NCBI GenBank assembly: GCA_004193285.1
Contig: SECP01000001.1
Coordinates: 186,001-250,000 of the forward strand
DNA length: 64,000 nt
DNA from: Myxococcales bacterium
Lineage (GTDB): Bacteria; Myxococcota_A; Polyangia; Polyangiales; Polyangiaceae
Direction: 5' to 3'
Position numbers and translations under genes: made by a program. Below, in pieces: positions 1,209 to 13,903 of this stretch. Below the pieces are notes generated by a model that was not told the DNA's origin, did no database searches, and worked only from the letters and a program-made list of their open reading frames with translations. Each line of letters begins with the position of its first letter. Positions within the stretch are counted from its first letter, which is position 1.

Positions 1209-2276
1209 GTGACGCTCCTGAAACCTCACGTCGGCTCTCCGCCGGTTGCCCTCGACGAGCTGGTCGGGAAGTGCCTCGGCGAGCCCCCGCCGGAGCTGGT
1301 CCGGCAACCGGGAGGGCTGTCACCGCGGCAATTTTTTCGTATGCGCCGCCAGTCCGGCGAGGCCGCGATGGTCATGTGGCTTCCGGACGACGCGCCGGAG
1401 CGAGAGCTGGCGCGGCGCCTCGGACGGCCGCTCCCGTTCCTCGAGCTGCGAGACTTGTTGGAAAAAAAGCGCGTGCGCGTCCCGCGCTTGTTCGGGGCGC
1501 TTCCCGAGCAGGGGCTGCTCGTCGTGGAGGACCTGGGCGAAACTTTGGCGGAACGTTGCGCGCGCGAGCCGGCGGCGCGGGCCGGCCTCTACCGGCGCGC
1601 GGTGAGCGACCTCGCGGCCGCGCAGCAGGCGCTGGCGGCGCTGCCGGAGGGAAGCATCGTCGCCACCCGCAGCTTGGATCGGAGCTTGCTCACCGGCGAG
1701 CTCGCTCAGTTCCGAGAGTGGGGCGTGGAGGCGCTCGGGGCGCCCCTCTCGTCCGAGGAGCTCGCGTGCTTCGAGCGAGTCACGGCGTTCCTGGTGGAAA
1801 CGATATTGCGGTTCCCGCAGGGCTTCACTCACCGCGACTACCAAAGTCGCAACCTGCTCGCGCTGCCGGACGACAGCATCGGGTGGATCGATTTCCAAGA
1901 CGCGCTCATCGGGCCGCGCGCCTACGACTTGGTCGCGCTACTGCGTGACAGCTACCAAGATTTCGACGAAGCCTTCGTCGACGCCCGCCTCGGCGACTAC
2001 GCGCTCGCAATGGCGCTCTCCGACTCGGAGAAGAGCGCGCTGCGCTTCGAGCTGGACGTCATCACCGTGCAGCGCAAGCTGAAGGACGCCGGGCGCTTCG
2101 TCTTCTTCGAGCGCTCGCGCGGGGACGCGAGCTACCTTCGCTACTTCGTGCCGACGCTGGAGATGGTGCGGGGCGCACTGTCACGCCTGGCTCATCGGGC
2201 GGAGCTCCGCGGCCTTTCCGAGATCGTGACGCGCCAGATCGAAATCGGCCGAAGCCGGGGTATGCTGCCCGTATGA
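1209..2276 (+). CDS. AmgK-like aminoglycoside-phosphotransferase-fold sugar kinase
   Basis: This 355-residue protein has the APH/choline-kinase fold. The catalytic loop THRDYQSRNLL places the base at Asp210 and the metal-binding Asn at 215. The metal-binding motif is IDFQDALIGPRAYDLVALLRD (Asp228). The combination HRDYxSRN plus DFQDAxxGPxxYDLxSLLRD is characteristic of AmgK, the anomeric N-acetylmuramate/N-acetylglucosamine kinase of cell-wall recycling, rather than of antibiotic-resistance enzymes. The start is GTG. No MurU-type nucleotidyltransferase lies next to it. The stop overlaps the start of the next gene (ATGA), so it heads a three-gene operon with an outer-membrane protein and a PrsW-like protease. 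The exact sugar substrate is inferred from motif similarity only. Confidence 0.75.
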   Translation: MTLLKPHVGSPPVALDELVGKCLGEPPPELVRQPGGLSPRQFFRMRRQSGEAAMVMWLPDDAPERELARRLGRPLPFLELRDLLEKKRVRVPRLFGALPEQGLLVVEDLGETLAERCAREPAARAGLYRRAVSDLAAAQQALAALPEGSIVATRSLDRSLLTGELAQFREWGVEALGAPLSSEELACFERVTAFLVETILRFPQGFTHRDYQSRNLLALPDDSIGWIDFQDALIGPRAYDLVALLRDSYQDFDEAFVDARLGDYALAMALSDSEKSALRFELDVITVQRKLKDAGRFVFFERSRGDASYLRYFVPTLEMVRGALSRLAHRAELRGLSEIVTRQIEIGRSRGMLPV

Positions 2277-3046
2277 AGAGCTCGCTCTTGCTTACCATCC
2301 CGGCGCTCTTGTGCTTCGGAGCGCCAGTGCTCGCGCAACAACCGGCGCCCGCGCCTGCCTCGAGCTTGGAGGCGGGCGGTTTGCGTCCGCCAGAGGCCGT
2401 CGACAGCAGCCAGCCCGCTCCAGCAGAGAACGCGGCGCCTTCCCCCGAGCAAGAGCTGGAAAAGGCCGATCGCGAGGACGCAGGCCGCGGCCTGGAGTGG
2501 ATCTGGCTCAATGCGGAGGTTGGCGCGCAGCACCTCGGCTTGCAAACGCTCAAGGCGGACGGCCTGGTCGACCCCAAGCTCGTCAAGACCACGCAGACGG
2601 GCTTGCTCTACGGCGCCGGTATCGGCGCGCGCATCTTGGTCTTCACGGTGGGCGCGCGTTTTCGTATGGGAACGTTCAAGGATTGGCAGCTGTGGACGCT
2701 CGACGCGGAAGGCGGCTTCCGGATCCCGATCGGGAGCTTGGAGCCGTACGTCAACGTTGCCGCCGGCTATGCGTCGCTCGGCTCGCCATCTACGGACGCC
2801 CCGGCCGCATCGAAGGCGAACGTGAGGGGCGTGCACGCGCGAGTCGGCGCGGGCGTCGACTACTACCTGAGCAACACTTTCTCGGTCGGCGGCAACCTCA
2901 GCGGTGACTTGCTGTTTCTGTCGCGCTCCAAGGTGGAAGGGGCGGAAGCGAGCACGAACGGTGACGAAGCCGCCGTCTACTCCAAGGACGGCTCGAGCAT
3001 CGGCGCGGGCACGAGCCTGACCGCGGTCGTTGGTCTCCACTTTTGA
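2273..3046 (+). CDS. Predicted outer-membrane beta-barrel protein
   Basis: 257 residues with a clear N-terminal signal peptide (hydrophobic LLLTIPALLCFGAPVLA, then AQQ). A Pro/Ala/Ser-rich, acidic linker follows to about residue 65. The rest alternates polar and hydrophobic residues, with many Gly/aromatic strands, and ends in VVGLHF; a terminal Phe is the usual Bam-recognised last-strand signal. This fits a small outer-membrane beta-barrel of the OmpW/OmpX-like or myxobacterial 'outer membrane beta-barrel' type, with no assignable substrate. The ATG overlaps the preceding kinase stop, and its own stop overlaps the TTG of the next gene, indicating co-translation. Confidence 0.7.
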   Translation: MKSSLLLTIPALLCFGAPVLAQQPAPAPASSLEAGGLRPPEAVDSSQPAPAENAAPSPEQELEKADREDAGRGLEWIWLNAEVGAQHLGLQTLKADGLVDPKLVKTTQTGLLYGAGIGARILVFTVGARFRMGTFKDWQLWTLDAEGGFRIPIGSLEPYVNVAAGYASLGSPSTDAPAASKANVRGVHARVGAGVDYYLSNTFSVGGNLSGDLLFLSRSKVEGAEASTNGDEAAVYSKDGSSIGAGTSLTAVVGLHF

Positions 3047-4170
3047 GCTTCGTCTTCGTTCCCCTGGTGGTGCTGCTCTCTGCGCTGCCCGTCTACTTCG
3101 TCTTTCGGCGCGTGAGCGGGCTCGGGCACGCTTCGCGCCGCCTCACGGCGTTGGTGTTCGGGTTGGGGGCAGCGGTCGCGGTCCTCTCTCAGTTGGTGGA
3201 GCGAGCCGTGCTGGCGTTCACGGAGCTGTCTTTCGAGGTTCGCTCCGCCGGGGTCGGCTCGGCCCTGCTCGCGAGCTTTTTGCTCGCCGCCCCGCTCGAG
3301 GAAGCGGGGAAAACGTTCGTGGTGTGGCCGCTCTACCGCATGCGGCGCATCGACGGGCCGCGCCTCGGCCTTTGCTACGCGGCGGCAACGGCGGGCGGCT
3401 TCGCGGCCGCCCTGGGCGTGTACCGCCTGCTGACGACGCCGTTCGACTGGGTGCTCGGGCTGCGGGTGCTGTGTCAAATCCCGGTGCACCTGTTCTTTAC
3501 CGGACTGTGGGGTTACGTGCTCGGTGCTCGCCGAGGCCAGAGCGGCGGTTGGTTTGCGATCACCTGGCTGGGCGCGGTCGCGATGCTGGGCCTGTACGGG
3601 CACATCGTTTGGGGACGAGGTCCGGGGTTTCTGGTGGCGGTCGTGCCGCTCTTGGTGTTCGTCGCGGTAGGAGCGGCGTCGGTGCTGCGCGAGGTGAGCC
3701 CCGATCGCGCCACCCTGGCCAGGCTGCATTTGCCGGAGGCGCCCCGGCTCAGCTTGGTGACGGACGCGCTCAACCCGCGTGACCAGCCGCTGATGCTGCG
3801 CTGGGTGGTGCTCGGCGCTTTCGTGAACATCGGGTTGATGTTCGTGCTGCTCGCTTCCGCGGTGGCGCTCGGCCACCGCCTAGGAGTGGACTTCTCCGCC
3901 GCGGACGAGACGGACATGACATCGGCGGGCCCGCTCGCTCTCCTCGGAGCGGCGCTGCTCGCGGCGTTTCCGCTCGCCGGCTACCTGGTGGCTCGCGCCA
4001 GCTCCTCGGTCGGAGTTTTGGAACCCGCGCTGGCGGCGGCGCTCGCCCTCGCGTGCATCGTCGCGATTCTGGCGCTCGTCGCGCCGCTCGGAGTGCTGTT
4101 TGCGCTGGCGGTGGCGCCGCTCGCCTTCGGCCTAGCGTGCGGCGGGGCCTGGATTGGGCTCGAGCGGTGA
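3043..4170 (+). CDS. PrsW-family intramembrane metalloprotease
   Basis: 375 residues with about ten hydrophobic segments. The PrsW marks are the EExxK motif in LAAPLEEAGKTFVVWP (about residues 84-99) and a later membrane His in IPVHLFFTGLWGYVLG, followed by a short basic loop. In the family these acidic and His residues bind zinc. PrsW of Bacillus cleaves the anti-sigma factor RsiW; the substrate here is unknown. The start is a TTG overlapping the stop of the beta-barrel gene, with no other start nearby in frame, so translation is probably coupled. The C-terminal third adds extra membrane segments beyond the core domain. The only membrane-bound anti-sigma candidate in this window is at 51079-51837, and no link between them can be shown. 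Confidence 0.75.
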   Translation: MSFVFVPLVVLLSALPVYFVFRRVSGLGHASRRLTALVFGLGAAVAVLSQLVERAVLAFTELSFEVRSAGVGSALLASFLLAAPLEEAGKTFVVWPLYRMRRIDGPRLGLCYAAATAGGFAAALGVYRLLTTPFDWVLGLRVLCQIPVHLFFTGLWGYVLGARRGQSGGWFAITWLGAVAMLGLYGHIVWGRGPGFLVAVVPLLVFVAVGAASVLREVSPDRATLARLHLPEAPRLSLVTDALNPRDQPLMLRWVVLGAFVNIGLMFVLLASAVALGHRLGVDFSAADETDMTSAGPLALLGAALLAAFPLAGYLVARASSSVGVLEPALAAALALACIVAILALVAPLGVLFALAVAPLAFGLACGGAWIGLER

Positions 4171-4171
4171 G

Positions 4172-5587
4172 TCAGGGGTGCTGCGCCTTGTACTTCGCGT
4201 ACTGGCCGCTGGTGAGGAGCTCGTCTTCGGGCAGCGTCTCGAGCGGGAGCGCGTCGCGCGCGGGATCGTAATCGGGCGCCAGGAGGCGCCGTAGGTCGAA
4301 GGCGCGGAATTTCCCGAGCAGATGAGGAGCGTCGCTCACCCACAGCACGCGTGGCCCGGTCTCGAGGATCACGCCGTGAGTTGCGATGAGCGCGTCGATG
4401 GCGCGGCGGTCACCGAGCGGCAGGGCTTCGCCGGAAGCCGCTCGCCGGTCACGGAGTAGCGCAGCCGCGCTCCGCGGTGAGATAGGCTCTGCCTGGGGGA
4501 GCGCAGCCACCAGCACGTCGCCGCGGGCCCTTCGCGGGAGGGTGGAGGTGCTCTCACGCACGCGCAGGTTCTTGGGGTCGTCGCGCAGCTCGGATTCGAA
4601 GTGGTTGGTGGTGGCGGCGCGCACCGGCAGGCGCCGCACCGCGTCCTGAAACCCCGGAGCGCGCTCGATGGCGACGGAATGACCGTGCGCGTCGGTCGCG
4701 ATCACGATGTGGCTCACCATCGGGGAACGCTCGCCGAGCAAGCGTATTGCGTCTTCGGTGGTGCGCGCTTCGGAGAGGACGCGACGGAGCGCGTGCACGA
4801 CTGGCTCACCGGAGGCGCGAGGCTCGCGCGCTCGACCGCCGTGCACCACCACCGCGACCCCCTCCAGATTCATGCCGCTCACGACGCCCACGAGCCCGGG
4901 CCAGGCGACGGAGGCGAACGGGATCTTGCCCTGCTCGCGCACGAGGAACACGGCTTTGCGGCGGTCGAAGATCTCGTCGACCTCGAAGTCGAAGGCGCGC
5001 GCCAGGACCCCCGAGCCGTCCGACGTGGCCGCGCCGTCGAACGTGAACGTCGTGCAGCCGATGAGCGGAGAGCCTTCGAAGGAGAGCGAAATGTCGTAGA
5101 GCGCGTTCAGGTACACGAAGCGCTGGTACGTGGGAAACAGGCGCTCGTATGGGTCCGGCTGAAAGCCGTAGGAGCCAGCCGCGATCTCCCGCAGGCGGTC
5201 CTGCGACATCTCCCGGTCGACCTCGCGATAGCGGAGCTGGGCCAGATCCATGAGCAGCGAGCGGGCGGCACGGAGCGGCACTTGCTGCTCGAAGCGGCCC
5301 AGCAGGATGCCCTCGTTCTCGACCATCTCGGGATAGAGCAGACGAGCGTGGGCGTAGCCTATGTCCACCGGTGTGCCGGCGAGCCCGACTTGAAGGATGC
5401 CTCCGACCTGGCGCGCATAGGCTTCGCCGAAGCGACGTAGCCCCGGCTCCTTCACCACTTGGCCCTGGGGTAGCGCGAGCCGAGGCGGGTCCAAGCGAGC
5501 GGCCCGCCCAACCGCGAAGTGAAAGATCAAGGCGCTGACGAACAGCGCAGCGAGCGCTACCAGCGCGACCCGAGCGACTCGCTTCAC
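4172..5587 (-). CDS. C45-type autoproteolytic acyltransferase/hydrolase (penicillin acyltransferase-like), membrane anchored
   Basis: 471 residues from a GTG that overlaps the stop of the upstream glycosyltransferase (GTGA). Residues 6-26 form a signal anchor (VALVALAALFVSALIFHFAVG). The core resembles the Ntn-hydrolase C45 family (acyl-CoA:6-aminopenicillanate acyltransferase-like). In this family the protein cuts itself before a Cys nucleophile; here the candidate is Cys178 in PLIGCTTFTF, followed by DGSGVLARAFDFEVD, which matches the family G-C-T-x-F ... RNFDF arrangement. Later marks include GMNLEGVAVVVHGG and TTNHFES. The likely activity is amide hydrolysis or acyl transfer on the outer face of the inner membrane. 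The substrate is unknown, but coupling to a GT2 enzyme suggests envelope lipids or glycans. Confidence 0.7.
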   Translation of the reverse strand: MKRVARVALVALAALFVSALIFHFAVGRAARLDPPRLALPQGQVVKEPGLRRFGEAYARQVGGILQVGLAGTPVDIGYAHARLLYPEMVENEGILLGRFEQQVPLRAARSLLMDLAQLRYREVDREMSQDRLREIAAGSYGFQPDPYERLFPTYQRFVYLNALYDISLSFEGSPLIGCTTFTFDGAATSDGSGVLARAFDFEVDEIFDRRKAVFLVREQGKIPFASVAWPGLVGVVSGMNLEGVAVVVHGGRAREPRASGEPVVHALRRVLSEARTTEDAIRLLGERSPMVSHIVIATDAHGHSVAIERAPGFQDAVRRLPVRAATTNHFESELRDDPKNLRVRESTSTLPRRARGDVLVAALPQAEPISPRSAAALLRDRRAASGEALPLGDRRAIDALIATHGVILETGPRVLWVSDAPHLLGKFRAFDLRRLLAPDYDPARDALPLETLPEDELLTSGQYAKYKAQHP

Positions 5588-6279
5588 GAAGCCTTGGACC
5601 TCGGCACCGTGAGCGCCGTGTGGACCAGGCGAGCCACGATGCGCGCCGGGTCCGAGACCACGCGGAAGTGAGAGACGCGTTGCTCCTTCGGTGGATAGAA
5701 TACCTGAACCGGCACCTCGACGATGAGGACGCCGCGCCGCGCCGCCCGCACCAGCATCTCGCATTCGAAGCCGTAGCCGCGCGCGTCCGAGCCCAGCGAA
5801 AGCGTCGTTGCGAGCGGGTACCGCCGAAGCCCACATTGCGTGTCGTGCAGGGGCTGCCCGGCGAAACGCGAGACCCACCAGTTCGAAAACCCGTTCGAGA
5901 ACCGGCTCGCTCGCGGCGCGCCGTCCCGCCGCAGATCACGCACCCCGAGCACGATGGCTCCTGCGGGCGCGCCGTGCTGGGCGAGCAAGAGGGCGTCCTC
6001 CGAGCGGTGCTGGCCGTCCGCGTCCACCGTGACCGCGGTCTCGAACCCTCGGTCTTTTAGCCAGGAAAAGCCGGTGCGCAGCGCCGCGCCTTTGCCGCGA
6101 TTGGCGTCGTGGGTCACCAGGTCCACCCCTAGCTTGCGAGCCACCTCGCCCGTGCCGTCGGTCGATCCGTCGTCCACCACGAGCAGAGCGCCCTCAGGGT
6201 CGACCGCACGCAGGCCTTGCAGCACCTGCTCGAGGCTTGCGGCCGCTTGGTAGGCTGGAATCAGGTAGGCGCGCTGCAC
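5584..6279 (-). CDS. Family 2 glycosyltransferase (polyprenyl-phosphate sugar transferase type)
   Basis: 231 residues, a compact GT-A enzyme. It opens with AYLIPAYQAAASLEQVL, then VVDDGSTDGTGEVA (nucleotide-sugar binding), ANRGKGAALRTGF, and the metal-binding VTVDADGQH. This is the DPM1/WcaA-like pattern of enzymes that load a sugar onto a polyprenyl phosphate. There is no C-terminal membrane domain, so it acts at the cytoplasmic membrane face as a soluble or peripheral enzyme. It is co-transcribed with the downstream C45-type hydrolase through a 4-base overlap. Donor and acceptor cannot be read from the sequence. Confidence 0.8.
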   Translation of the reverse strand: MQRAYLIPAYQAAASLEQVLQGLRAVDPEGALLVVDDGSTDGTGEVARKLGVDLVTHDANRGKGAALRTGFSWLKDRGFETAVTVDADGQHRSEDALLLAQHGAPAGAIVLGVRDLRRDGAPRASRFSNGFSNWWVSRFAGQPLHDTQCGLRRYPLATTLSLGSDARGYGFECEMLVRAARRGVLIVEVPVQVFYPPKEQRVSHFRVVSDPARIVARLVHTALTVPRSKAS

Positions 6280-6311: not shown

Positions 6312-6938
6312 ATGCCCTTGTTCGATGTCACGCAAGTCACGGAGCTGGCCGAAGCCGCCAAGAAAGAGCTTCGTAAACGGATGCGCGCGGTGCGGACCGC
6401 GCTTCCGGCCGAAGCGCTGGCCGCGCGCAGCGCCCAGCTCGTCGCGCGCGCGATCGCCCTCCCGGCGTTTCAGGACGCCAGGAGCGTGGCGCTGTTTTAC
6501 CCGATGGAGGATCGCAAAGAGGTCGACTTGCGCGCGCTGGACGCAGCGGCGCGCGCGGCCGGAAAGCGCGTCTACTACCCATTTTTGGAGCAGCGGGAGC
6601 AGGGCGGCGTCTCCGGGCTTCGGCTCACGAGCTCACTCTCGGAGCTGGCGCCGGCCGGTAGCCGGTTCTTGGAGCCGCGGCTGGACGCAGAGCAGGCCGC
6701 GCGCGCAGACGTGGACCTGCTGTTCGTACCGGCGCTAGCGGTGGCGCCGACCGGTCACCGCCTCGGATACGGTGCGGGCTTTTACGATTCGCTCTTGCCG
6801 GACGTGTGCCCACCCGGCAAAGCGGTTGCGGTCGCGTTCGACTTCCAGCTCTTGGTCGAGCTGCCCACGCTCGCGCACGACGTGCCCTGCGACTTCGTCC
6901 TCACGGACGCGCGCGCGCTGGTGGCCACCCGGGCCTAG
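6312..6938 (+). CDS. 5-formyltetrahydrofolate cyclo-ligase
   Basis: 208 residues from the ATG at 6312; an in-frame upstream extension would overlap the divergent glycosyltransferase and adds nothing family-like. The enzyme converts 5-formyl-THF plus ATP to 5,10-methenyl-THF. Visible motifs are the N-terminal KKELRKRMRAVRTALP, the mid-protein SVALFYPMEDRKEVDLRAL, and the ATP/metal-binding PTGHRLGYGAGFYD near the C terminus. Its end overlaps the end of the convergent Fur-family gene by four bases. It appears monocistronic, with its promoter upstream inside or beside the glycosyltransferase start. Confidence 0.9.
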   Translation: MPLFDVTQVTELAEAAKKELRKRMRAVRTALPAEALAARSAQLVARAIALPAFQDARSVALFYPMEDRKEVDLRALDAAARAAGKRVYYPFLEQREQGGVSGLRLTSSLSELAPAGSRFLEPRLDAEQAARADVDLLFVPALAVAPTGHRLGYGAGFYDSLLPDVCPPGKAVAVAFDFQLLVELPTLAHDVPCDFVLTDARALVATRA

Positions 6939-7528
6939 CTTCGGCCGCGCGGGCTGCGGCCCGCCTTGGGCTTCTGACAATCCGCGCAGACGCCGTACAT
7001 CTCGTGCTTGTGAGCGCGCACCAAGAAGCCATGGCGCTTGGCCACGCGGTCCTGAAGCACCTCGATTTGAGGTTCTTCGAACTCGATGATCTTGTTGCAC
7101 TCCAGGCAGACGAGGTGGTCGTGGTGAGCGTCTTCGTCCGCCAGCTCGTAGCGGGTGAAGCCGTCCCCGAACTTGTGCTCTTGCACGACGCCGCTCTCCG
7201 AGAGCAGCTTCATCGTGCGGTACACGGTCGCGTAGCCGACCCGGGCGTCCACCGCGCGCACCTGCTTGAGGAGGCTGTCGATCGTGATGTGCTCGTCCGC
7301 GTCGAAGAAAGTATCGATGATGAGGCGGCGTTGCTCCGTGGAGCGTAGGCCGCGCTTCAGCATGTACTCGTTGAGATCGTGCCGCAGCCGCTCCTGGTCG
7401 GGCGGGCGGGGTTTGGGCTGGGTCTTGGTCATTTCCCCGCTCTTCACTGCCGTATCTATCCCCGGCGCCTGGGCCTGGGTCAAGGACTCCACGCTGGGAG
7501 CGGGTAGGGTCGGAGCTTGAGGCGTCAT
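6935..7528 (-). CDS. Fur-family metal-responsive transcriptional regulator
   Basis: 197 residues. The Fur winged helix spans about residues 50-125 (LKRGLRSTEQRRLIIDTFF ... GYATVYRTMKLLSESGVV). The dimer/metal domain has the DAHHDHLVCLECNKIIEF segment and a second CADC pair, giving two CxxC pairs for structural zinc plus the His-rich sensing site. The N-terminal 32 residues are a low-complexity extension. An internal ATG at 7432 would give a more typical 165-residue Fur, but the ATG at 7528 overlaps the upstream stop as TAATG, supporting coupled initiation. It is the last gene of an operon with argD and a degenerate P-type ATPase. Whether it senses iron, zinc or peroxide cannot be decided here. 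Confidence 0.85.
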   Translation of the reverse strand: MTPQAPTLPAPSVESLTQAQAPGIDTAVKSGEMTKTQPKPRPPDQERLRHDLNEYMLKRGLRSTEQRRLIIDTFFDADEHITIDSLLKQVRAVDARVGYATVYRTMKLLSESGVVQEHKFGDGFTRYELADEDAHHDHLVCLECNKIIEFEEPQIEVLQDRVAKRHGFLVRAHKHEMYGVCADCQKPKAGRSPRGRS

Positions 7529-9759
7529 TAGCGCTCGTTTCTGAGACGGGAAAGGGCCACGGCACTACCGAGGCAGGTGAGGATGGGGGCCAGAGCCGCC
7601 GGCGCGAACCCGAAGGCTGCCACCACCACGCCACACAGCGCCGGCGCGAGGATGAGGACGTAACCGAGCTGCGCCTCGCGGTGGGCACGGTGGGCGACTC
7701 GCAGCGAATAAGCGGCGTCCCTCACGTCGTCCGACGCGAGCTGCACGCTCCACTCCGCCGAGCTCGAGCCAGCCACCGACAGTGCCACCGAAACGTCTGC
7801 GGCGGACAGGGCGCTGTCGTCGATGGGGGTACGCCCGACTACGGCCACCACCGCGCCGCCGTCACGCAGACGGCGCACTTCGTCGCCTCGCTCTCCGGGC
7901 GGGACCTCGGGGCGAAGGTGGTCGATGTCCAGCGCGCGACCGAGCGCTTCGCAAGTGTCACGCGCGTCGCCGGAGAGCAGGATTGGCTCGACGTGCACGT
8001 CCAGCACGTGCTGCACCGCGGCGCGCGCGCCGGCGCGCAGGCCGTCTTGCAGCCCGATGACGCCGATGAGCCGGTTACCGAGCGCCACGAGCAGCACACT
8101 GCGGCCCATCGCCTCCAGCTCACTGATGCGCGCCTCGGCGCCGGCGACGCCAATGCGCTCCCGTAGCATCAGGGCGCGGCTACCCACCGCGAGGGTTTGG
8201 CCGCTGCCGGCGACGGCGGTGATGCCGAGACCGGGCACCGGAGTGGGGCTGCGCACGGCGTCGGGCCTGACGCTGCGCGCCCGCGCTGCTCGCAGCACCG
8301 CGGCGGCCGCAGGGTGCTCGACGCTAGCTTCCGCGCCGGCCGCGAACGACAGCACGCTCTCCGCGTCGTGGCCCGACAGCGCGTCGATGCTCGTCACCTC
8401 CGGCTCGCCGAGCAGCAGCGTGCCACGCGCGCAGAACGCGACGCTGGACACGCGCCCGGCGCGTTCCAGCGCCTCCGCGGAGCGGAACGCGATGCCGCGA
8501 CGCAGCGACGCGAGCACCGCTCGCATCAGCTGCAGCGACCCAATCTCCGCCAGCCCCGCTTGCGCGAAAGCGGCGTAGCTGGCGACGCCGAGCAACATGA
8601 CGCTCGGGCTCGAGCCGCTGCCGGCGAAGGCGAGCAGGGCGGCGAACCCAGCCACGAATGGAGCGGCCCGCTCGGCGAGGTGGCGACCCAGGCGCGCGAG
8701 CTTGCCGTGCACGTCCGCCCGCCGCCGCGGATCGTGTGCGAGCCGAACGAACGCGCGATCGTGACCAGCCCAGCCGACGATGGCCCGCAGCGTACCTTCC
8801 AGCACGGTCGCGCCCGCGACCAAGCTGTCACCCTCTTTGCGCTCCACCTGAGCCTTGGCGCCGAACCATGGCAGGACCAGCGCGGTGCCAGCGGTGACGG
8901 TGGCGTCCACCGGTAAGATGTCCCCCGGCTCCACGACGATTTCTTCGCCGGGCCGCAAATCGGCAGCGCTGGTGCTCTGGACCTCGCCGGCTACGATGCG
9001 CCGCCCTGGTTGGTCCAGCGCCGCGAGGAGCTGGAGCCTCTCCAGCTCCAAGGGCCGGCGAGCGCGCCGAACCATCAGCAGGCCCGTCGCCGCGCACAGC
9101 GTGACGATGCCGGCGAGGACGATGGCGCTCTCGGCCTCGACCTGCTCCGAAAGCCGCAGGCCAATGGCGGCCGCGGTCGCGACGACCGGGCCCGACAAGG
9201 TGGCGAGCGGGTTCAGCTCCGTGACGCTCCGGTGACCCATCGCGCACTCGGCCACGAGCGCGGCCGTGGCCACCGCGGCGACCACCAACCGCGCCGCGAG
9301 CGACAGCTCCGAGCTCCCGGTGAGCGCCAGCACGAGCGATAGCGCGGCGCCCAGAACGGAGAGCGACAGCAGCAGCGTTCCGGCATCCACCGAGAGAGCA
9401 GGATCGAACGGTAGATGAGCGGCATCCGAATCCGCTTCGCCTGGCTCCGGCTGACTCGTGCCCGCGGCCTCCTCGCTCCCGCCGGACGGCTCCGAAAGCG
9501 CTTCCGCTTCGTCCAGGCTGGGTAGCGGCTCAGCCCAGGACGGATCTTCGAACGAGGGGAGCGGGGCCGCGGCCGCGGTAGGGGTATGCCGCAGCCGGGC
9601 TTGCGAGCGCTCTGGCTCCCCGACGCGATACGTTTGCTCGCAGCTGACGCTGCAGAAGTAGCAAAAGCGTTCGTGAAAATGCGCGACGCGTGGCGCTCGA
9701 AGCGGATCGACCGGCGCGTGGCAGCTCGCGCACGGTAGCGTCTCCGCCGCGAGGCTCAT
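7528..9759 (-). CDS. Degenerate heavy-metal (P1B-type) ATPase-like protein with Cys-rich N-terminal domain
   Basis: 743 residues with P1B-ATPase architecture but without the catalytic signatures. Residues 10-40 hold CASC and CYFCSVSC, a TRASH/YHS-like metal site; a Ser/Glu-rich linker follows to about 115. Membrane segments lie near 125-148, 154-172, 187-203 and 211-230, then 365-400, and 698-737. The actuator region is present, but the TGE loop reads FGA (299-301). The membrane CPC reads AQA (399-401). The phosphorylation motif DKTGT reads CARGT, so the catalytic Asp is Cys443. GDGxND reads GRTPIDD (642-648). The nucleotide-domain HP (EHP, 481-483) and SGD (596-598) remain. The frame is intact and long, so it is not an obvious pseudogene. 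It is coupled to argD upstream (ATGA) and the Fur-family gene downstream (TAATG). It probably cannot pump; a metal-sensing or scaffold role is inference. Confidence 0.75.
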   Translation of the reverse strand: MSLAAETLPCASCHAPVDPLRAPRVAHFHERFCYFCSVSCEQTYRVGEPERSQARLRHTPTAAAAPLPSFEDPSWAEPLPSLDEAEALSEPSGGSEEAAGTSQPEPGEADSDAAHLPFDPALSVDAGTLLLSLSVLGAALSLVLALTGSSELSLAARLVVAAVATAALVAECAMGHRSVTELNPLATLSGPVVATAAAIGLRLSEQVEAESAIVLAGIVTLCAATGLLMVRRARRPLELERLQLLAALDQPGRRIVAGEVQSTSAADLRPGEEIVVEPGDILPVDATVTAGTALVLPWFGAKAQVERKEGDSLVAGATVLEGTLRAIVGWAGHDRAFVRLAHDPRRRADVHGKLARLGRHLAERAAPFVAGFAALLAFAGSGSSPSVMLLGVASYAAFAQAGLAEIGSLQLMRAVLASLRRGIAFRSAEALERAGRVSSVAFCARGTLLLGEPEVTSIDALSGHDAESVLSFAAGAEASVEHPAAAAVLRAARARSVRPDAVRSPTPVPGLGITAVAGSGQTLAVGSRALMLRERIGVAGAEARISELEAMGRSVLLVALGNRLIGVIGLQDGLRAGARAAVQHVLDVHVEPILLSGDARDTCEALGRALDIDHLRPEVPPGERGDEVRRLRDGGAVVAVVGRTPIDDSALSAADVSVALSVAGSSSAEWSVQLASDDVRDAAYSLRVAHRAHREAQLGYVLILAPALCGVVVAAFGFAPAALAPILTCLGSAVALSRLRNER

Positions 9760-10955
9760 GGCAGCGCGCCGAGCACTCGATCCACGATGTCCAGCGCGGC
9801 GCCCAGCTCCGCGGCGGTGATGTTGAGGGGCGGCGACACGCGCAGCGCTTGACCACCGGCGATCGTCACCAGCACGCCCGCGTCTTGCAGCTTGCCGAGC
9901 ACGTCTCGAGCGTCCACCTCGTCCTTCAGTACGAGCGCCTGCAGCAAGCCGCGACCGCGCGCGCTCGCCACCAGCTTGGGGTACTTGCTCCCGAGCGCGC
10001 CGAGGCGCTCCGCCAGCTGGGCGCCGCGCGCCTCCACGTTCTCGAGCAGCTTCTCCTGCTCGATGGTGCGGAGCACCGCGAGCGCGGCGGCGGAGGCGAG
10101 GGGATTGCCACCGAAAGTCGACCCGTGACTGCCCGGCGGAAGCGCCTCCGCTAGGTGCTCGATGCAGAGCATGGCTCCGATGGGCACGCCGCCGGCCAAG
10201 CCTTTGGCGAGCGCGACCACGTCTGGCTTCACGCCGGCTTGCTGAAAGCCGAGAAACTTGCCGGTCCGGCCGACGCCGGTCTGAATCTCGTCCGCCAAGA
10301 GGAGCGCGCCCGCTTCGTCCACGATGTCGCGAAGGGCTTGGAGGAAGCCGGCTGGGGCCGGCAAAACGCCGCCCTCTCCTTGGACCGCTTCGACCAAGAT
10401 GCCCGCGACGTCCGGACCCATTTCCTGGCGCACTCGCTCGACGTTGCCGAACGGTACGTGAGTCACCCCCGGCAGCGGACCGAAGCCGTCCTTGTACTTG
10501 GGCTGACCGGTGGCGGCGAGCGCGCCCAGGGTGCGACCGTGAAACGCGTTGTCGAACGCGATGATCCGGTAGCGGTCCTTCTCGCCCTTCGCGTAGTAGT
10601 GCCGGCGCGCGAGCTTGAGCGTCGCCTCGATGGCCTCCGTCCCGGAGTTACAGAAGAAGACGCGAGCCATGCCCGTGAGCTGCGTGAGCTTCGCCGCGAG
10701 CTCCACATTGGGCTGGTTGTAAAAGTAATTGGAGAGGTGGACGAGCTGCTTGGCTTGCTCCGCCACCGCGGCGGCGAGGGCCGGGTGCGCGTGCCCGAGC
10801 GTGCTCACGGCGATGCCCGCGAACAGATCGAAGTACTGTTTGCCGGACGCGTCCCACAGCCGCGAGCCTTCGCCACGGACGATGACGAACGGGGGCTGGC
10901 GGTAATTGGGGTAGAGGTGGTCGCGACCGAGCGCTACGAGAGCATCTTGGGACAT
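9756..10955 (-). CDS. argD: Acetylornithine aminotransferase (class III PLP aminotransferase)
   Basis: 399 residues, full family length. It catalyses the PLP-dependent conversion of N-acetylornithine and 2-oxoglutarate to N-acetylglutamate semialdehyde and glutamate in arginine synthesis. Visible marks are FDLFAGIAVSTLGHAHP, FFCNSGTEAIEATLKLAR, FHGRTLGALAATGQ, LLADEIQTGVGRTG, and the PLP lysine in DVVALAKGLAGGVPIGA. The C terminus (ALRVSPPLNIT) is typical of ArgD. Close relatives act on succinylornithine or other omega-amino substrates, so the exact substrate is inferred. It is the first gene of the argD / ATPase-like / Fur operon; its stop overlaps the next start by four bases. Confidence 0.85.
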   Translation of the reverse strand: MSQDALVALGRDHLYPNYRQPPFVIVRGEGSRLWDASGKQYFDLFAGIAVSTLGHAHPALAAAVAEQAKQLVHLSNYFYNQPNVELAAKLTQLTGMARVFFCNSGTEAIEATLKLARRHYYAKGEKDRYRIIAFDNAFHGRTLGALAATGQPKYKDGFGPLPGVTHVPFGNVERVRQEMGPDVAGILVEAVQGEGGVLPAPAGFLQALRDIVDEAGALLLADEIQTGVGRTGKFLGFQQAGVKPDVVALAKGLAGGVPIGAMLCIEHLAEALPPGSHGSTFGGNPLASAAALAVLRTIEQEKLLENVEARGAQLAERLGALGSKYPKLVASARGRGLLQALVLKDEVDARDVLGKLQDAGVLVTIAGGQALRVSPPLNITAAELGAALDIVDRVLGALP

Positions 10956-10974
10956 CTTCGGGGCGCCTCTTTTA

Positions 10975-11760
10975 TCACAGCTTGCGGCGAAGGCTCAGGA
11001 TGACCTCGGACGCCTCCACGACGCCGCTCCCCATCGGTCTAGCGGTGACGTAGCGGGGCCGAAGCGTGGACTTTCCGCGCAGATTCGCGACGCCGATGCT
11101 CACCGCGAACGCCGCGAAGCAGGAGGCGTCGTTCTCGCTGTCACCGAGGTAGGCGTAGGCGTGCCGGACCGCGGTGCTGTCCAGCCCGGAGTCTTTGGCG
11201 AGGAGCCGCACCGCCCCGCTCGCCTTGTCTGCGTAGTCGAAGGTCGCGTGGAGGTGCACGCTGGAGACGAACGTACGCGCGCCCTGCTCGCGCAGGAACG
11301 CCGACGCCTCCGCCACGCGGTCGGGCGCCACCTGCCGGTACTCGCCGATGTCGAAGGTGCGGTCGGAGACTCGCGCTCGCACGTCGTCCGCAGGCTCCAG
11401 ATCCGGGAACGAAAGCGCGAAGCGATGTAGCAGTTGCGTCAAACGCTCGTCCCGTTCGCGCCGCGTCGCCGCGTCCACCGAGTCTTCCACCAGGATGCGT
11501 TCGCCGCGCCGGGCGCACACGAGAGCGCCGTTCTCGGCCACGATCGCTTTGACTGGGAACAGCCGCGCGAGCACCTCCGCCCACCCAACCGGGCGCCCCG
11601 TGACTCCGTACAATTCCAGGCCCGCTTCGGTCAGGCGGAACAGAGCGCTGTAAGTGGCCTCTGCCAGCCGACCGTGGTCGAGCAGCGTGTCGTCCAGATC
11701 GAAGGCGACGCCGCGCAGCCTTGCGGCTTCGGTGGCGCTCAGCTCGGCGATCGGGCGCAT
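10975..11760 (-). CDS. HAD-superfamily hydrolase, Cof/type IIB-like
   Basis: 261 residues. HAD motif I is VAFDLDDTLLD (nucleophile and acid Asp at about 19 and 21). The late acidic motif is YLGDSENDASCFAAF, the classic GDxxND of Cof-like phosphatases. SIGVANLR after it matches the family pattern A.GVANA. The mid-protein region (GYxxVTGRP, then VAENGALV) matches the type IIB cap architecture. It probably dephosphorylates sugar phosphates or similar small metabolites; the substrate is unknown. Its ATG shares one base with the stop of the upstream RNA methyltransferase (TGATG), so the two are co-translated. Confidence 0.8.
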   Translation of the reverse strand: MRPIAELSATEAARLRGVAFDLDDTLLDHGRLAEATYSALFRLTEAGLELYGVTGRPVGWAEVLARLFPVKAIVAENGALVCARRGERILVEDSVDAATRRERDERLTQLLHRFALSFPDLEPADDVRARVSDRTFDIGEYRQVAPDRVAEASAFLREQGARTFVSSVHLHATFDYADKASGAVRLLAKDSGLDSTAVRHAYAYLGDSENDASCFAAFAVSIGVANLRGKSTLRPRYVTARPMGSGVVEASEVILSLRRKL

Positions 11761-12950
11761 CAGCCCTTACCAATCTCCGCGATCAGCGACGACAGGTAGA
11801 GGCCCTCCGGGAAGGCCGCGGGCACAGGATGATCCGGACCTTGAAAGAAGCGCTCGAGCACGATGGCCCGTAGCCCCACGTCCGCCGCGCCGAGGGAAAG
11901 AGCGCGGGTCAGCTCCGGCAGGCCGATGGCGGCCGAGCAGCTGCAGAGAACGAGGGTGCCGCCGGGGGTCGTCGCGCGGGCGGCTTGACCTGCGAGCTTG
12001 CGCATCATTCCGAGCGCACGGCCCCGCGCCGCGCGAGTGGGAGCGAGCTTCGGCGGATCACAGATCACTAGGTCGTAGCCGCCGCGTTTACCGGCTCGGT
12101 CCAGCGCCTGCACCGAGTCCTCGCACTCGAACCGGATCTTGCCCTCCAGCCCGTTGAGGCGCGCGGCCTCCGCGGCGACCGTGAGCGCGAGCGAGCTCTG
12201 GTCCACGGCCTCCACCTCGGTGGCTCCCGCTCGCGCAGCGCCGAGCGCGAAGGTGCCGACGAAGGCGTACGTGTCCAAGACGCGTCGCCCTCGCGCCAGC
12301 TGCTCGGCGCGCGCCCGCAGGTCGCGTTGGTCGACGTAGAAGCCGGTCTTCTGACCGAGCTCGAGCGGAATACGAAACTGCAAGCCGCGCTCGGAGACGT
12401 CGAAATGGGTCAGGCCCTCGTCGCCGCGCACGATGCCCTTGCCCGCTTCGAAGCCTTCGCTCTTGGCCGCTCGCTCCGAGGTCCGGTCCACGATGGCGCG
12501 CGGCTGCAGCAAACGCTCCAGCGCGTCCAAGATCGCCGTCTCGCGGCGCTTCATGCCGATGGTTCCGAACTGAACCGAGAGCACGTCACCGAGCTGGTCG
12601 ACCACCAACCCGGGAAGCTCGTCACCTTCCGCATGCACCAAGCGCACCGCGTTCGTCTCCCGAGACGGCAAGCCGAGGTGCCGCCGCCGCTCCACCGCCG
12701 CCTCCAAGCGGGCGCCGAGGAGCTTGGCGTCCACCCGGCGGTCCCGCTCGCGGGTGAGGATGCGGACCGGGATCGCGGAGCCGGGGGAATACAGGCCGCG
12801 GCCCAGGAAATTGCCGCGGACGTCCTTCACCTCGACCTCGTCGCCCGCCTGGGCGCCGCCCTCGATTCGCTCCACGGCCTGCGCAAACACCCAGGGGTGC
12901 CCGGCCCAGACCGGCTGGACATGCCCAGCTTTCAACACGACGCTTGCCAC
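11760..12950 (-). CDS. RlmI-like class I SAM-dependent rRNA methyltransferase
   Basis: 396 residues from the GTG at 12950 (VASVVLKAGH). A longer in-frame opening would run into the divergent outer-membrane gene and is Arg/Pro-rich noise. The order fits the RlmI family: an N-terminal PUA-like domain (GHPWVFAQAVERIEG ... VRGNFLGRGLYSPGS), a middle EEHEE-like domain (RLVHAEGDELPGLVVDQ), and a C-terminal Rossmann domain (RVLDTYAFVGTFALGAARAGA) with the DPP motif in VICDPPKLAPTR. RlmI makes m5C1962 in 23S rRNA. The LVLCSCSAAI segment matches the catalytic-Cys region of the family. It sits upstream of the HAD phosphatase in the same operon. Confidence 0.82.
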   Translation of the reverse strand: MASVVLKAGHVQPVWAGHPWVFAQAVERIEGGAQAGDEVEVKDVRGNFLGRGLYSPGSAIPVRILTRERDRRVDAKLLGARLEAAVERRRHLGLPSRETNAVRLVHAEGDELPGLVVDQLGDVLSVQFGTIGMKRRETAILDALERLLQPRAIVDRTSERAAKSEGFEAGKGIVRGDEGLTHFDVSERGLQFRIPLELGQKTGFYVDQRDLRARAEQLARGRRVLDTYAFVGTFALGAARAGATEVEAVDQSSLALTVAAEAARLNGLEGKIRFECEDSVQALDRAGKRGGYDLVICDPPKLAPTRAARGRALGMMRKLAGQAARATTPGGTLVLCSCSAAIGLPELTRALSLGAADVGLRAIVLERFFQGPDHPVPAAFPEGLYLSSLIAEIGKG

Positions 12951-12991
12951 GGGCGCGGTCGTAGCACTTCGGCTAGGCTCCGCCGAGAGCC

Positions 12992-13819
12992 ATGCGCCGC
13001 TTCGCCGTGTCTGCCGTCGCCGCCTCGCTCCTGGTCGCCATTGCCGTGCCCGCCCGGGCGGCGGGGGATTGCCCGGACGGGGACTGGTTCTGCGAGCCCG
13101 CTCCGAGTCCCGCGCCGGGGGAGGCCCCACCGCCCGTTCCGCCCGCGCCTTCTCGAGGCGGGCCCACGGACATGCCTCCGCCGCAGCCTGTTGCGGAAGC
13201 GCCGAGCCCGGCCCAAGGCGAGATGCGCCTGGACGTGCCGCAGATGGAGCCCGCGCGGCCTCGGCGCCGACGCGGCTATCGCGAGTGGGGGCTAAACCTC
13301 CACGCCAACCTCGGCCTCATGGGTGGCGACGACCGCAAGTCGCCGAACGCGGACATGAACGGCATCGGTGCGGCGCTCCGGTTCCGGCCGATTCCGCACA
13401 TCGCGATAGAAGGCTCGCTCGAGCTGCTCTGGGGCACCGACTACAACGGCTACGACCGGTTCGAGGACGCGCTGCTCGTCAACGGCCTGTTTTACGCCAA
13501 CCCGCGCAGCGCCGTTCAATTCTACGGCCTGGCCGGCTTCGGCTTCGGCGCTGCTCACCTGGACAGCGGGCTTGCCGCCGACGGGCAGCCCGTTTTGCGG
13601 GACGAGACGTACGCCTACGTCGGCGGGCAGCTGGGCGTCGGTGTCGAAGGCCGAGTGACGCGCCATTTCGCGCTCGGGGCCGATTTGATCGGCTTTCTGC
13701 GCTGGCGTAACGATCGCAACGCTCGGCGAGAGCCCGAGTTCGTCGACCCGGAGACGGGCAAGACGACGAACACTTCGGGCGGCGGTCTTCTGCGGCTCGG
13801 CGCGACGTTCTACTGGTGA
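12992..13819 (+). CDS. Predicted outer-membrane beta-barrel protein with Pro-rich linker
   Basis: 275 residues. A signal peptide (FAVSAVAASLLVAIAVPARAA) is followed by a Cys pair (GDCPDGDWFCEP) and a long Pro/Ala/Gly linker to about residue 85. A short Arg run (RPRRRRGYREWG) precedes the barrel-like domain. That domain is rich in Gly and aromatic residues in alternating strands and ends in GATFYW; a terminal aromatic residue fits outer-membrane insertion. The motif HIAIEGSLELLWGTDYNG resembles OmpA-like and myxobacterial beta-barrel families. It is divergent from the RlmI-like gene, with only 41 bases between starts, and ends at a strong hairpin shared with the convergent HU-like gene. Confidence 0.65.
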   Translation: MRRFAVSAVAASLLVAIAVPARAAGDCPDGDWFCEPAPSPAPGEAPPPVPPAPSRGGPTDMPPPQPVAEAPSPAQGEMRLDVPQMEPARPRRRRGYREWGLNLHANLGLMGGDDRKSPNADMNGIGAALRFRPIPHIAIEGSLELLWGTDYNGYDRFEDALLVNGLFYANPRSAVQFYGLAGFGFGAAHLDSGLAADGQPVLRDETYAYVGGQLGVGVEGRVTRHFALGADLIGFLRWRNDRNARREPEFVDPETGKTTNTSGGGLLRLGATFYW

Positions 13820-13851
13820 CGCGCGTTCACGGGCGTAGCCACAAAACGCGA

Positions 13852-13883
13852 GCGTCCCCGGCTCCGAAGAGAACCGGGGACGC
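13852..13883. terminator. Bidirectional hairpin terminator between OMP and HU-like genes
   Basis: A perfect 10-bp inverted repeat (gcgtccccgg / ccggggacgc) with a 12-base loop lies between two convergent stops. On the minus strand it is followed after a few bases by TTTT (plus-strand acaaaacgcg), which fits an intrinsic terminator for the HU-like gene. On the plus strand there is no T-run. Confidence 0.65.
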
Positions 13884-13903
13884 CAGGGCACGGACGCAGA
13901 GTC

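Follow-up and report, generated by a model that had tools for sequence, protein, structure and literature searches.

Why would a lineage keep a metal pump that can no longer pump? The question is raised by one gene in a 64,000-nucleotide stretch of a Myxococcales bacterium (NCBI GenBank assembly GCA_004193285.1, contig SECP01000001.1, positions 186,001–250,000; hereafter the window) in an order that we take to be Polyangiales (hereafter the order). Conserved catalytic motifs are the textbook hallmark of P-type ATPases. This gene encodes a protein of 743 amino acids (aa) with the build of a metal-transporting P1B-type ATPase in which the catalytic motifs have been replaced; we call it the pseudo-pump. 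Our preferred reading, to which we give a probability of roughly 0.55 from sequence comparison, is that it represents an order-wide, P1B-derived pseudoenzyme that would be membrane-anchored and non-pumping and would act as a metal-responsive sensor or scaffold.

Gene and domain organization

The original prediction, made from the DNA alone, placed an intact frame of 743 codons at 7528–9759 and gave no strand. The frame is intact and lies on the minus strand, as do all of its parts:

7528–9759, minus strand: predicted catalytically dead P1B-type ATPase gene, 743 aa, ATG start, TAA stop (domain searches and DNA re-read)
9640–9732, minus strand: putative N-terminal Cys4 treble-clef/TRASH-like finger, residues 10–40 with C10, C13, C36 and C40 (Cys alignment; weak Pfam matches in relatives)
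9031–9384, minus strand: membrane helices 1–4, residues 126–243 (AlphaFold model: 126–147, 151–174, 184–203, 209–248)
8725–9030, minus strand: actuator domain, residues 244–345 (Pfam PF00122 at 253–381)
8857–8865, minus strand: FGA at the TGE site (DNA re-read and alignment)
8488–8703, minus strand: membrane helices 5–6, equivalent to M3–M4, residues 353–424 (AlphaFold model and conservation profile)
8557–8565, minus strand: AQA at the CPC site (CopA alignment and DNA re-read)
7690–8487, minus strand: phosphorylation (P) and nucleotide-binding (N) domains, a HAD-like module, residues 425–690 (Pfam PF00702 at 446–654)
8419–8433, minus strand: CARGT at the DKTGT site, with C443 and R445 (CopA alignment and DNA re-read)
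7966–7974, minus strand: SGD, the TGD motif, kept (alignment and DNA re-read)
7816–7836, minus strand: GRTPIDD at the GDGxND site, with R643 and the last Asp, D647, kept (alignment and DNA re-read)
7537–7689, minus strand: final two membrane helices, residues 691–741 (AlphaFold model)

By descent and fold the protein belongs to the P1B superfamily, as found with Pfam, a CopA profile and alignment, and Foldseek. Pfam matches above cut-off are E1-E2_ATPase (5.9e-13) and the HAD-like Hydrolase (3.4e-08). The NCBIfam model for heavy-metal P-type ATPases, TIGR01525, gives 193.9 bits where its cut-off is 346.25, so the protein is recognisably P1B yet under that threshold. A full-length AlphaFold model has eight membrane helices, a fair actuator domain and an unusable P/N module (mean pLDDT, the model's confidence score, 60.1; residues 422–523 and 569–683 below 50), and the P/N domain modelled alone reached 38.6. 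Foldseek with the full model returns Zn and Cu P1B ATPases as top matches (best E 4.2e-17) at low TM-scores, which we attribute to the poorly modelled P/N part.

Loss of catalytic motifs

Re-reading the DNA reproduced the residues of the original prediction exactly: FGA for TGE, AQA for CPC, CARGT for DKTGT, GRTPIDD for GDGxND, the SGD, and cysteines C10, C13, C36 and C40. Its wider statement that every catalytic motif is lost holds for the TGE, CPC, DKTGT and GDGxND sites and goes too far elsewhere, with D598 of the SGD, D647, the N-domain HP and the GxG still present in the window protein. Aligned to CopA (PDB 3j08), CARGT falls on DKTGT and AQA on CPC, and no displaced canonical Asp or CPC lies within a few residues of either.

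Residues were counted over 96 aligned copies, namely the window protein, locus L009 and 94 further loci, with some positions aligned in 94 or 95. Another 11 members (L145–L148 and the divergent L162 and L179–L184) were aligned separately. Contig-end fragments (L149, L163, L186) and broken copies (L150, L151) are left out of the 96, and three of the ten loci in one later set (L185, L187, L188) carry DKTGT and are pumps.

No orthologue with intact motifs was found. The phosphorylatable Asp of DKTGT occurs in 0/96 aligned copies and 0/11 further members; position 443 holds C in 68 copies, S in 11, L in 7, A in 4 and other residues in the rest, and the further members have C, P, Q, E, N, G or L. 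At the CPC site, Cys is found at 399 in 2/96 copies and at 401 in 0/96, and the canonical Glu of TGE survives in 1/94. The first Asp of GDGxND is present in 0/95 and the last, D647, in 94/95. Replacements around the Mg2+ site recur: the DKTGT Thr at 445 is R in 81/96 copies, the Mg2+ Asp at 643 is R in 44/95 or H in 34/95, and the catalytic Lys is R in 86/95. D598 is retained as D or E in 86/95, and H482 of the N-domain HP in 58/96. At the level of sequence, the aligned copies demonstrably lack the sites for phosphorylation and Mg2+, the dephosphorylation motif and the metal path, and by established P-type logic a pump cycle is almost certainly impossible.

Family extent and origin

Matches cover most of the order. 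Of the order's 183 genomes, 148 matched the single protein at E ≤ 1e-45, and 149 matched a 21-row family profile at E ≤ 1e-98, with just 3 to 5 candidates per genome scored in the profile search. At least nine of the 34 genomes with no strong match (G040, G048, G159, G160, G219, G223, G253, G291, G292) hold a divergent or contig-cut copy. In a sample of 282 genomes from the phylum, again with 3 to 5 candidates scored per genome, the 37 matches of at least 457 bits all lie inside the order; the best match outside it (327 bits) is an intact pump, as are all of the five best there. Beyond this phylum, coverage came from a close-relative scan of 84,980 species alone. Its 11 loci are in records labelled Polyangiaceae, Polyangia, Myxococcales, Sorangium and, once, Proteobacteria.

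In a FastTree phylogeny of 96 members and 15 canonical pumps, rooted on one pump, all 96 members form one clade with no pump inside (support 0.959, stem 1.30); on this tree, the family has a single origin. The candidate of a half-degenerate intermediate was rejected: DKTGT, CPC and GDGxND are present in all 18 outside-family matches examined. These comprise L132–L144 (eight from other orders and five second copies in the order, a subset of the high matches from a search that scored 3 to 5 candidates per genome) and L189–L193 (the five best outside the order). Canonical pumps occur as well in the window genome and in other genomes of the order.

Selection and conservation

The ratio of nonsynonymous to synonymous substitution rates (dN/dS) was taken on the 40 pairs of lowest dS. 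Twelve within-genus pairs (dS 0.16–0.66) give 0.037–0.225 for the whole protein and 0.02–0.19 for the P/N module, with the linker reaching 1.53 in one pair; 20 pairs between genera give 0.34–0.75. By these ratios the protein is shown to be maintained under purifying selection. The earlier suggestion of a kept pseudo-pump, not a decaying gene, is borne out by the within-genus values, with two broken frames discussed below counting on the other side. The single-protein search flagged internal stops in two genomes alone, G287 and G202. The profile search shows a stop in 16 rows; in G000 its match extends beyond the gene's own stop.

Conservation within the protein is inverted relative to a pump. 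We compared mean column entropy between 15 random family members (50 draws) and 15 canonical pumps. Entropy in the membrane is 2.11 in the family versus 1.04 in pumps for the M3–M4 helices and 1.95 versus 0.87 for the last two helices. For the soluble parts it is 1.76 versus 1.25 in the actuator, 1.46 versus 1.24 in P1, 1.52 versus 1.70 in N and 1.22 versus 1.27 in P2. The metal-path helices drift and, linker aside, the membrane helices are the least conserved part, while the P/N module is conserved as in working pumps.

In five genomes most of the actuator domain is missing. Alignment covers 21% of its columns in G061, 37% in G040, 33% in G159, 19% in G160 and 29% in G253 (loci L028, L162, L180, L179 and L184, respectively), and the profile agrees. 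These genomes belong to four genera in families f1, f2 and f3 (f-labels denote families of genomes), and the domain was possibly lost more than once across the three families. All five copies retain the finger, the P/N module and an arginine-gene neighbour. The first helix block is also poorly aligned in G040 and G253 (31–32%). In G219 (L181) the profile omits the actuator domain, yet the alignment covers 70% of it.

N-terminal Cys4 finger

The C-x2-C/C-x3-C site formed by C10, C13, C36 and C40 is complete in 91/96 copies, and two more have CCCH. The other three (L057, L076, L087) sit at contig edges. The site is complete in 11/11 further members, and few residues of the protein are better conserved than its four cysteines. 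Relatives give weak matches to DUF7576 (11/21 members), TRASH_HVO_1752_C (5/21, best E 2.3e-05) and zf-FCS. A Pfam search with the finger only peaks at a score of 25.1 against a cut-off of 27, and the window protein itself has no such match. In a Cys4 treble clef the Zn is usually structural and not exchanged. PMC4626032 describes TRASH/YHS domains as binding transition metals: the TRASH domain L24e coordinates Cd with four Cys, and the YHS domain of a Mycobacterium phlei cyclase is a probable Cu sensor.

Gene neighbourhood

In the window the pseudo-pump lies in a run of five co-directed genes, the other four of which are:

11760–13130, minus strand: RlmI-like rRNA methyltransferase, earlier in the run, true start probably later (Pfam/NCBIfam)
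10975–11760, minus strand: HAD-IIB phosphatase, earlier in the run (Pfam/NCBIfam)
9756–10955, minus strand: argD (acetylornithine aminotransferase), immediately upstream, with a 4-nt overlap (ATGA) between its end and the pseudo-pump start
6935–7528, minus strand: Fur-family gene, directly downstream, with a 1-nt overlap (TAATG)

Scans of 6700–13900 found 0 promoter sites (0.1 expected) and 3 terminator sites (3.0 expected).

The original prediction had made the Fur-family gene the key operon partner. Across the family this does not stand: Fur is downstream on the same strand in 25/96 loci, versus 69/96 loci in which an automatic test finds argD/argF or argH, the commonest direct neighbours. 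As a defining partner Fur was rejected on this count. The 25 comprise 23/63 f1 loci, within 1.5 kb, and 2/2 f27 loci, and in four more loci (L052, L062–L064) Fur is close by on the opposite strand. The window Fur (6935–7528, minus strand) scores highest among the three FUR-family matches of its genome and so may be the genome's main Fur.

Arginine genes flank the pseudo-pump in two arrangements over seven families (f1, f2, f3, f26, f29, f30, f31), divergent copies in G040, G159, G160 and G253 included. In f1, the finger codons have argD or argF no more than 400 nt upstream in 50/63 loci, and a plain tblastn listing recovers arginine genes in five of the misses (L021, L048, L049, L065, L066). 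In the second arrangement argH is directly downstream (12/13 loci in f2, 4/4 in f29 and 1/1 each in f26, f30 and f31); argH also follows the pseudo-pump in G040, G159 and G160. Two f5 loci (L032, L092) have a divergent argH in the same tblastn listing. No pseudo-pump gene was found in 12 argH-centred loci from other orders of the class, where lysA adjoins argH in 6/12, and the window genome's own argH sits on another contig. The gene may date from the base of the order and have originated next to arginine genes.

Other neighbours recur as well. A protein of 450–864 aa, which we take to resemble an L,D-transpeptidase-type lipoprotein, is found beside the pseudo-pump in L029, L090, L093, L094 and other loci outside f1. 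The window also encodes a C45-type autoproteolytic acyltransferase (4172–5878, minus strand), relatives of which occur close to the locus in several genomes of f1, and, at 2273–4170 on the plus strand, an outer-membrane-like protein with a weak CglE match, followed by a PrsW-like protease that is also near the locus in relatives.

Proposed function and alternative explanations

Under the preferred reading of a sensor or scaffold, the helices would now serve mainly as an anchor and the Cys4 finger would bind metal, probably Zn(II), either structurally or as a sensor. R445 and R/H643 stand at two positions where working pumps hold Mg2+, beside the retained D598 and D647, and could form internal salt bridges with them, fixing the P/N module in a shape free of Mg. 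Finger and P/N module together would make a membrane-bound sensor or docking platform, co-produced with enzymes of arginine (and lysine) biosynthesis and, in certain lineages, a Fur regulator as well. The arginine link is our best lead to a partner and also the weakest step of this mechanism.

Several observations weigh against this reading. The other 25 of the 34 weak-match genomes have no demonstrated copy. Pseudo-pump frames are broken in G202 (L151/L124) and G287 (L150), through either sequencing error or decay, which are indistinguishable here. Eight of the 40 lowest-dS pairs have dN/dS above 1; all join distant lineages (dN 0.69–0.82), and we set them aside because shared extreme GC3 bias (GC content at third codon positions) probably compresses dS. 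The salt-bridge proposal draws on alignment and on known pump structures, and neither AlphaFold model resolves the P/N module. A co-directed arginine neighbour is found in 0/7 f4 loci, 0/4 f5 loci (same-strand test) and 0/2 f27 loci. Since these families lack it and the arginine genes differ between lineages, the linkage may be an inherited position and not a functional one.

Taken further, that last point gives a membrane role unrelated to metal or arginine, with the operon position a frozen accident. We consider this improbable, as arginine genes that vary by family still flank the pseudo-pump in both arrangements over seven families, divergent copies included. Somewhat less unlikely is a membrane metallochaperone or metal store, in which the finger holds or passes metal and the pump fold is an anchor with no signalling. 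The conservation of the four cysteines fits such a role, as does the metal binding of TRASH/YHS domains (PMC4626032), but P/N conservation equal to that of working pumps would be left unexplained. The usually structural, non-exchanging Zn of a Cys4 treble clef also speaks against it.

A dead copy could instead pair with an active P1B pump and tune it, which we rate just as improbable as the frozen accident. Canonical pumps are available in the window genome and in others of the order, and a P-type pump can be a dimer (from the title of PMC10925321), but no open reading frame of at least 200 aa with DKTGT occurs in any of the 96 loci (median 14.2 kb), and the membrane helices, the likely contact face, are the least conserved region apart from the linker. 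The odds are slightly poorer again for an enzyme that still binds or hydrolyses nucleotide by a new chemistry, for example with Cys443 as nucleophile. Cys is the commonest residue there, and SGD, the last Asp, HP and GxG persist in the window protein. However, 28/96 copies carry another residue at 443, which makes a Cys443 nucleophile unlikely; the Mg2+ Asp is R or H in 78/95, the Lys is R, and H482 is kept in little more than half of the copies. A local lesion was rejected, the Asp loss being common to 96/96 copies. Local lesion or decay taken together is very improbable: the broken frames in two genomes would fit it, but the losses are shared throughout, within-genus dN/dS is low and the origin is single.

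Relation to known systems

Neither pseudoenzymes nor non-functional P-type ATPases are new as such. Within the open-licence literature, the titles and abstracts among the matches listed describe no pseudo-P-type ATPase family and no order-wide, wholly dead P1B family. The closest solved relatives by profile are CopA-type Cu+ P1B-1 ATPases (PDB 3j08/3j09 and 3rfu; E 3.5e-85 for 3j08). They share the domain order of the pseudo-pump and the eight helices predicted for it, but the pseudo-pump lacks the phosphorylation, Mg2+, dephosphorylation and metal-path motifs, carries an N-terminal Cys4 finger with a CxxC and in some members has lost most of the actuator. L24e, the YHS domain of Cu-ATPases and that of the M. 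phlei cyclase have the same four-ligand Cys arrangement (PMC4626032), whereas the finger here is fused to a dead pump, matches Pfam weakly and is a putative metal-binding site.

A dead P-type half retained in the chain is not without parallel: FUPA24 (CtpH, CtpI) is said, after Chan et al. in 2010, to keep a non-functional one. In FUPA24, however, working-pump motifs are present in the C-terminal region according to PMC3573892, and the pseudo-pump chain has none.

PMC10654040 poses the question of whether eukaryotic P1B pumps are transceptors, that is, transporters that are also receptors. The pseudo-pump would differ in being a bacterial receptor with transport wholly lost. A bolder version, which we hold only tentatively and think doubtful as a whole, is that it founds a receptor-only P-type ATPase family: transport would have been lost in the ancestor of the order, and the Cys4 finger and an arginine-locked P/N module would couple metal state to arginine/lysine synthesis. 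A family of single origin that shed its catalytic motifs and kept P/N constraint as in pumps shows that the P-type fold has a selectable role beyond pumping, and its members provide a natural separation-of-function set for asking whether P1B pumps act as receptors, as raised in that source (PMC10654040).

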